In this document: piece after piece, positions 21,175 to 21,383 of the stretch
How positions within the stretch are numbered: the first letter of the stretch is position 1
Layout of the letters: every line of letters begins with the position of its first letter
NCBI GenBank assembly: GCA_910574255.1
Contig: CAJTAK010000002.1
Coordinates: forward strand, 310,001-374,000
Length of the DNA: 64,000 bases
Direction of reading: 5' to 3'
Source: Clostridia bacterium
GTDB taxonomy: Bacteria; Bacillota; Clostridia; Lachnospirales; Lachnospiraceae
The notes under the pieces: generated by a model
Databases searched by the model: none
Told to the model about the DNA's origin: nothing
Seen by the model: only the letters and a program-made list of their open reading frames with translations
Made by a program: the position numbers and the translations under genes

Positions 21175-21383
21175 TTCCAGTTCCGCAGCATCTCAGGCAG
21201 CGCCACCTATATAGAACAAATTCCGGTCACTTAATACCTGTGCCCGTAATTCCTTCTGGCACTTCTTCCGATGCTGCTGTTTCCAGTTCCGCAGCATCTC
21301 AAGCAGCGCCACCTATATAGAACAAATTCCGGTCACTTAATACCTGTGCCCGTAATTTCTTCCGGCACTTCTTCCCATGCTGC
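21175..21383 (-). repeat. Tandem array of 93-bp structured units (106-bp period), array 1
   Basis: Two copies with a 106-base period. In each, GCAGCAT (left) pairs with ATGCTGC (right) across exactly 93 bases (21185-21277 and 21291-21383), with a 13-base spacer. Nested inside are GCGCC/GGCAC-type and AGAACAAATT-type stems. The core (CACCTATATAGAACAAATTC and neighbours) matches array 2 at 50491-50720, which has the same period and unit length but a different, still complementary, outer stem. It lies between two co-oriented genes, just upstream of glpK, on the minus strand. Confidence 0.8.

Follow-up and report, generated by a model that had tools for sequence, protein, structure and literature searches.

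A structured repeat family of Lachnospiraceae that sits directly before Shine-Dalgarno sequences and is probably mobile

Two tandem arrays of nested hairpin units in a 64-kb window (the whole stretch of DNA analyzed, 64,000 nucleotides) raise the question of what kind of element they represent and how it comes to stand between co-oriented genes. Array 1 consists of a unit at 21174..21279 (minus strand; 83.2 bits against covariance model R1, described below) and an upstream unit at 21280..21385 (minus; 75.3 bits), repeated at a period of 106 bp with stem-to-stem spans of 93 nt each (21185-21277 and 21291-21383), which bears out the preliminary description of two 93-nt units before glpK. The array abuts the Shine-Dalgarno sequence (SD) GGAGGG of the glpK-like gene (21168..21173, minus; read from sequence and ORF). 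The glpK-like ORF is listed at 19667..21175 (minus) with a start that overlaps the array end; its start codon is likely at 21161-21163 (MAKY...), and the true start is thus probably 21163, not 21175. On the other side lies a galM-like gene (21401..22447, minus; ORF listing). From their sequences we take the two genes to encode a glycerol kinase and an aldose epimerase, respectively. Array 2, described as having the same unit length and period, does so in units at 50491..50596 (minus; 97.8 bits) and 50597..50702 (minus; 95.6 bits). The range given for it, 50491-50720, also takes in a third, partial unit of 20 nt, undescribed there, that retains only the 3′ end (AGGTACTACGGGACTTAAAT; 50703..50722, minus). 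This piece is flush with the stop codon TAG (50721-50723) of an oadB-like ORF (50721..51896, minus; ORF listing), the last two bases being common to both. At its other end array 2 abuts the SD AGGAGG (50485..50490, minus; from sequence and orthologous sites) of a small ORF of 47 codons read by eye (50333..50476, minus; start codon 50474-50476), which is presumably oadG-like by its position and family; the name oadB is likewise presumed. The sense strand of both arrays is the minus strand, as for both flanking gene pairs. In a repeat search, array 1 showed 65-67% identity to the first unit of array 2, and the second unit of array 2 was 98% identical to that unit. All four window units match R1 on the minus strand (75-98 bits, E ≤ 1.8e-14), although three of them were in its building set, so that only unit 50597-50702 is an outside match.

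Read on the sense strand, the unit of this family (family A) spans ∼105 nt. It opens with CAG and an outer stem of 8-10 bp, followed after a short internal loop by an inner stem and then by a long hairpin whose 3′ side carries a conserved bulge of ∼8 nt; it ends in a tail reading CGGAACTnnAAA, given as CGGAACTGGAAT in unit 21174..21279. What had been called a 13-base spacer between units is the conserved tail plus CAG. A CRISPR array was rejected on this ground, as the 13 nt between units are not differing spacers. Within the hairpin, A.G mismatches border a helix of 3 bp; they are present as A.G in 121 of 148 copies at one place and, at the other (columns 39/55), as A.G in 109 and swapped to G.A in 29 of 148. 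Six other genera of Lachnospiraceae carry the same fold and tail with very different stems. The earlier statement that the repeat could not be matched to a known riboswitch was upheld: neither the window nor seven loci carrying families A, B (see below), and C yielded an Rfam match at the gathering score of the model. At E ≤ 10, array 1 had no match, and array 2 matched MIR6217 (27.9 bits against a cut-off of 110, E 2.1e-4) and mir-624 (17.6 bits against 100, E 0.69). These matches to animal microRNA models lie far below the cut-offs and are read as general hairpin resemblance. A known RNA family or riboswitch was rejected for want of an Rfam match at the gathering score. Among the papers listed from the open-licence PMC literature, no title or beginning of an abstract described this repeat family.

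R1, a covariance model built from 29 copies, detected at least 150 copies of family A in the 5.04-Mb host genome, all at E < 1e-6, and a search of genome stretches added three (C9, C12, C7) for a total of at least 153; a query with the 63-nt core gave 47 matches. A complete search of the initial 380 kb of contig C5 found 18 copies above 70 bits, identical to the 18 from the genome search. The 150 copies are grouped into 110 arrays (76 with one unit, 28 with two, and 6 with three), 108 of which could be analyzed in sequence, the other two being without sequence. Among the 34 multi-unit arrays, outer 5′ arms (9 nt) differ by 0-2 positions in 25, and nine mix units with clearly different outer stems (three or more differences). 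In many arrays the first copy is clipped and the units after it are full. Comparison of the upstream flank with the tail of the array's own unit scored at least 8 in 48 of 108 arrays, a level for which there is no separate chance estimate, and at least 13 in 26 of 108, 17 of which match their own locus best; a clear clipped copy is thus found upstream in a quarter to under half of arrays.

The proposal that selection acts on a folded structure with co-varying outer stems, made from four units, was examined by the covariance model and a statistical covariation test on 150 aligned copies (148 distinct), and it was supported. Changes occurred on both sides in 27 of 32 pairs, including 7 of 8 outer-stem pairs, so the refuting outcome proposed with the earlier description, copies with no compensatory outer-stem changes, did not arise. 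Outer stems also pair in general, as had been noted, with the exception of one mismatch in unit 21280-21385 (GCAGCATC versus CATGCTGC), which leaves 7 of 8 pairs there. Cells with double changes numbered 687 as compared to 227.9 ± 21.5 in shuffles, and the covariation score was 0.422 as compared to 0.192, with none of 500 shuffles reaching the observed value in either case; the alignment was fitted to the model structure, which favors that structure, and kinship among copies inflates the cell counts. Paired cells made up 89.1% of the total and fell to 33-48% when the partner was slid by 1-3 columns, while in the outer stem and hairpin 96% of cells were paired, with several pair types at most pairs. 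A structure predicted afresh on the same alignment contained 26 pairs, 20 of them with double changes. On the sense strand of the copies, G-U pairs outnumber A-C pairs by 258 to 64, which indicates that this strand folds as a single strand. By part, the counts are 166 versus 23 for outer stem and hairpin alone and 92 versus 41 for the inner stem, where misalignment blurs them because the helix has only 63% paired cells. Predicted folding energies of the window units are likewise lower for the sense strand (−37 to −48 kcal/mol) than for the antisense strand (−27 to −39 kcal/mol). The earlier wording, a function in DNA or RNA form, is hereby narrowed to a single-stranded sense form, whether RNA or single-stranded DNA, and a function as double-stranded (cruciform) DNA is disfavored by the same G-U excess. 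By covariation and the G-U excess, the units fold into one conserved nested hairpin formed by the gene-sense strand.

The surprising feature of the arrays is their position. In 100 of 108 arrays, the last unit is followed within 12 nt by the start of an SD-like motif in sense orientation, by a lenient motif definition (down to four bases, e.g., AGGA or GGAG) and as a count made without a shuffled control; six of the eight arrays without a near SD run into family B. The start codon lies 6-21 nt past the array end (median 13; 98 measurable arrays), and a sense ORF of at least 60 codons starts within 45 nt in 95 of 104 arrays, so that the common orientation relative to transcription noted for the two window arrays holds genome-wide. 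Nine arrays lack such an ORF: six are followed by family B, one precedes the 47-codon oadG-like gene, and two (C1:282980 and C9:148766) are unexplained. A divergent ORF starts near the upstream side in 14 of 104 arrays. AGGAGG is found at 48% of element-bearing starts (103 sites, after removal of five arrays followed by family B, a sixth such array being kept) as compared to 17% of 265 C5 genes, a control set that includes element-bearing genes and whose starts were picked by an SD-favoring rule, which works against the difference. At the oadG site, seven element-free relatives read CTG-TAG-GAGG, and occupied sites read TAG, element, and AGGAGG or alike; before uppS, AGGAGA precedes the start both in genomes with the element (G000, G008, and G009) and in genomes without it (G001, G003, G010, and G011). 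As element-free relatives carry an SD too, the SD at the compared sites is that of the host gene. In nearly all arrays, family A sits in sense orientation directly before an SD.

Such placement could reflect a host cis-regulatory RNA, i.e., a leader or intercistronic element, protein-bound or alone, that tunes translation or protects mRNA and was dispersed by duplication and kept by selection gene by gene. The narrow distance range to the start codon, the sense orientation together with strong covariation, and the conserved bulge with A.G mismatches that swap to G.A would all suit this explanation. Predicted unpairing around SD and start codon was also slightly higher with the native unit (0.556) than with shuffled units (0.498; p = 1.5e-6) or the upstream flank (0.513), in 68 and 59 of 99 arrays, respectively. 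However, an effect of this small size in a folding model fits tolerance better than strong regulation. Moreover, the few named downstream genes (glpK, oadG, uppS, and spoIIIAD, as we presume them to be) look functionally unrelated, presence at a given gene varies between species of the genus, copy number ranges from 0 to at least 150 per genome, and clipped 3′ pieces without the hairpin occur. We accordingly consider a regulatory origin unlikely.

Orthologous sites in relatives, compared by eye with one genome per species, were empty, full, or clipped; neither movement nor strain-level polymorphism was seen in this set. Between oadB and oadG, seven of 15 genomes are empty (G001, G002, G003, G010, G012, G013, and G014). 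Two units and a clipped piece are present in G000 and G009, and the single unit of G005 is cut within the hairpin. Shorter 3′ pieces occur in G004 and G015 and a degenerate 3′ piece in G006; G008 has a degenerate element, and G007 is without a recognizable one. The left junction lies directly behind the stop codon in G000, G004, G005, and G015. Before glpK (16 genomes), the element is full only in G000 and clipped or tail-only in G004, G006, G008, and G009; in the remaining genomes, several of which have a different upstream gene, no element was recognized. At the site of query G015a 9139, compared in four genomes, G009 is empty (TAA-AGGAGG), G005 is clipped, G004 retains the tail only, and G015 is full with 12 extra nt, the copies standing directly behind TAA. 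At uppS (16 genomes), G000 has three units, and G008 and G009 one unit plus a partial copy; G004, G005, G006, and G015 have other structured repeats there. Among 14 genomes compared at spoIIIAD, other units are present in G005, G006, G008, and G009, and none was recognized in G015 and seven others. No clear target-site duplication was defined; at most ∼3 bp (TAG) would fit at oadG, the other sites being ambiguous by eye. The copies of relatives keep their 3′ end at the SD, whereas the 5′ end is cut variably and often flush with the upstream stop codon.

A profile search of 2.02 Mb in 163 stretches gave the same asymmetry, with eight copies clipped on the 5′ side, one (C5:60458) on the 3′ side, and 217 near-complete; the profile was built from full copies, most stretches were chosen for holding copies, and partial matches within 60 nt of stretch ends were dropped. 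In a less biased set (C5 and 14 stretches from relatives), four copies were clipped at 5′ as compared to one at 3′. This asymmetry could be due in part to the search method and in part to selection, because 3′ losses would affect the SD.

An alternative explanation is decay of old insertions, with one ancestral array per site and species-specific contraction by recombination between tails and by deletion from the 5′ side. At spoIIIAD, G000 and G004 share a left junction but have one and no full unit, respectively, which indicates that array contraction also happens and is as this explanation predicts; the glpK tail common to G008 and G009 and the similar 5′ arms of most multi-unit arrays (25 of 34) agree with it as well. 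In contrast, at oadB/oadG and at the G015a 9139 site several species share the same stop codon but have different breakpoints within the element and no 5′ remnant, a pattern that random deletion would rarely give, and the nine arrays that mix units with different stems also speak against it. Overall, decay is a very unlikely explanation.

Distribution among genomes is patchy. Within the genus, R1 matched 11 of 16 genomes at E ≤ 0.001 (at least 150, at least 150, 146, 123, 115, 97, 91, 47, 4, 1, and 1 copies) and found none in five. At E ≤ 1e-6, matches were present in seven of 299 genomes of a Lachnospiraceae sample, the host's own included, and in the own genome only of an order sample (1 of 392) and a phylum sample (1 of 398), both of which include family members; only 9-13 candidates were scored per genome in these three samples, so that misses are likely. 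The pattern of tail plus TAGGAGG occurs in at least 107 stretches of GTDB genomes. Among 80 listed titles, the names are Lachnospiraceae, Lachnoclostridium, Diplocloster, Clostridia, Clostridiaceae, or just “bacterium”, and 39 of the 80 stretches overlap an R1 match. By eye, several other listed stretches contain a diverged unit that can fold, or have a tail immediately after a stop codon, and some matches (e.g., Diplocloster L270) may be chance. Judging by these carriers, the host is probably a Lachnospiraceae of the gut.

Family A is real, large, structurally conserved, and SD-anchored, and whole, clipped, or absent copies in relatives point to a mobile element whose landing site is unusual; mobility is the most likely account. 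In our estimate, with a probability of roughly 0.6, it is a small (∼105 nt) non-coding, non-autonomous mobile repeat that targets the upstream edge of SDs and is copied from its 3′ tail. A new copy would begin at the tail/SD side and be extended toward the 5′ end of the element, with stops at variable points, by analogy with target-primed copying. The fold and tail would be needed for recognition in the intermediate, and tandem arrays could result from copying of a multi-unit source, repeated landing at the same SD, or local duplication. A self-contained hairpin that leaves tail and SD free would allow insertions to be tolerated within operons. The fixed 3′ end, variable 5′ end, gene orientation, tail common to two families, and single-strand folding are as expected from 3′-tail copying at the SD. 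The route could be reverse transcription of RNA, with copying from the tail at a nicked or broken SD in the manner of target-primed reverse transcription, or DNA-templated repair, in which a broken SD end would copy from another element-bearing SD and then switch back with no special enzyme; the latter would yield the same junctions. RVT_1 (PF00078) matches were present in 10 of 16 genomes of the genus, and none was found at E ≤ 1e-5 in G006 (123 copies; 92% complete) or G015 (97 copies; 83% complete). Within this survey, which covered PF00078, no mobilizing enzyme or autonomous partner was identified, and a reverse transcriptase partner is not supported. Copying of the outer stem from the target site was rejected, because the 5′ arms have a common consensus and the empty oadG sites are without the tail.

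Movement could instead be that of a DNA transposon derivative, MITE-like or REPIN/IS200-like, mobilized as (single-stranded) DNA by a transposase encoded elsewhere, with SD adjacency produced by target preference and selection against other sites. Enzymes of the TnpA-REP type recognize hairpins, and the copies are numerous, short, palindromic, intergenic, and patchy among relatives, as such a derivative would be. Yet the outer stem varies by locus with pairing kept, so the ends are no conserved inverted repeats, and neither the gene-sense orientation nor the combination of clipped 5′ and fixed 3′ ends in relatives is in its favor. We regard a transposon derivative as unlikely, although a partner transposase may exist.

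A second family bears on copying from the 3′ tail at the SD. Family B (∼175 nt; AGTCCAGC... GTTGCGTAGCAACTTAAAA) forms a nested hairpin and resembles family A only in this form and in the tail AACTnnAAA. When own-genome stretches totaling 1.1 Mb, most of them picked for family A, were searched by blastn, 43 pieces were obtained at E ≤ 1e-3. At E ≤ 1e-4, 33 of 39 pieces extend at least to query position 162; of the remaining six, two have internal deletions and four differ in the last hairpin, which has diverged. The 5′ starts range from 1 to 144. Most pieces run into an SD or a family A unit. One 5′-clipped piece lies in the window at 16727..16769 (plus strand), directly before the SD of an ORF starting at 16783. 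Among 21 genomes, with at most 39 candidates scored per genome, family B occurred in G000, G004-G009, and G028 (another genus), i.e., in seven of eight A-rich and none of eight A-poor genomes of the genus; it was not found in A-rich G015 or in G188, G199, G286, and G295, four of five A-bearing genomes of other genera. Family B behaves like family A and occurs in almost the same set of genomes of the genus. SINEs and LINEs include non-autonomous families with a common 3′ tail, and, as in group II intron retrohoming, their 3′ end is fixed while 5′ ends are variably clipped. Families A and B are similar to SINEs in their shared tail and, for family A, in a fixed 3′ and variably clipped 5′ end (8 versus 1 and 4 versus 1). 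The mechanism is drawn by analogy only, and the families differ from SINEs and group II introns in that no reverse transcriptase partner (RVT_1) was found in G006 and G015 and that the target is a bacterial ribosome-binding site. A more specific version of the mobile reading, which we hold only tentatively and consider doubtful, is that SINE-like mobile RNAs of at least two families, alike only in their 3′ tail, home to ribosome-binding sites in Lachnospiraceae, where the folded sense transcript would be copied into DNA from its tail at the SD, often incompletely, to leave tandem and 5′-clipped copies between stop codon and SD.

Bacterial interspersed repeats are already known, and the unusual part here is the position at the SD together with the 5′ clipping. 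A repeat that stands precisely at the upstream edge of the SD, in one orientation and 5′-clipped in relatives, would, if true, represent a distinct way to live in operons without breaking genes, and one copied from RNA would be a bacterial counterpart of SINEs. Family A alters the region before about a hundred genes of the host genome, which makes it a natural experiment on how SD-adjacent hairpins affect translation.

By their descriptions, known repeat systems resemble family A in part. PMC3049150 reports 125 BOX and 110 RUP elements in one pneumococcal genome. According to that paper, BOX, RUP, and SPRITE are short repeats whose transcripts are predicted to fold; they are regarded as parasites and hardly occur in other streptococci. 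BOX is built of modules, of which boxB may be missing or present several times, and both BOX and RUP carry terminal inverted repeats and generate target-site duplications. As portrayed there, BOX and RUP are like family A in being short multi-copy intergenic repeats with a predicted fold, and family A is set apart by terminal stems that vary and co-vary, by its 3′ end at the SD, and by 5′-clipped copies in relatives. A MITE with terminal inverted repeats common to all copies is not what was found, as the outer stem differs between loci. REPINs and RAYT-associated REPs, which are short, palindromic, in high copy, and hypothesized to be non-autonomous, are similar in these respects; known REPs bear a GTAG or CGTC tag at one end, according to PMC3733652, whereas family A copies, compared by description, are gene-sense before SDs and form head-to-tail arrays. 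MRSC-65-2, from a 50-genome ncRNA survey, is a multi-copy structured motif thought to be selfish; it consists of one long stem with UYCCGG repeats and occurs in diverse phyla (PMC11109978). Unlike that motif, family A has nested stems and a conserved bulge, is SD-anchored, and was seen only in Lachnospiraceae-type genomes.

Several further repeats were observed. A third structured repeat upstream of uppS (L217, L218, L220, and L221) reads GCAGTGCGAAAACAG ... CATAGGGCGAAGCCC ... GGCACTGCGG; it occupies this same intergenic site, arranged in tandem in G005 and G006, and has no Rfam match. Near 4600-4690 of L276, tandem tails alone (TGCGGAACTTAAAAC repeated) stand before an SD without a hairpin. 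In the window, an interspersed element with inverted arms of 39 nt (GCTGTCGGGAAATAAGACAG...) occurs at 556-731, 40486-40679, and 62518-62563 as two near-identical copies and a fragment. Imperfect direct repeats (TTTGTGCATAAAGGGATACCCGTAGGGTGTTTCCTT) occupy 4161-4269, and a similar stretch adjoins a family A copy in L029. Finally, an inverted repeat at 62170-62335 has 36-nt arms that are 94% complementary and 94 nt apart.
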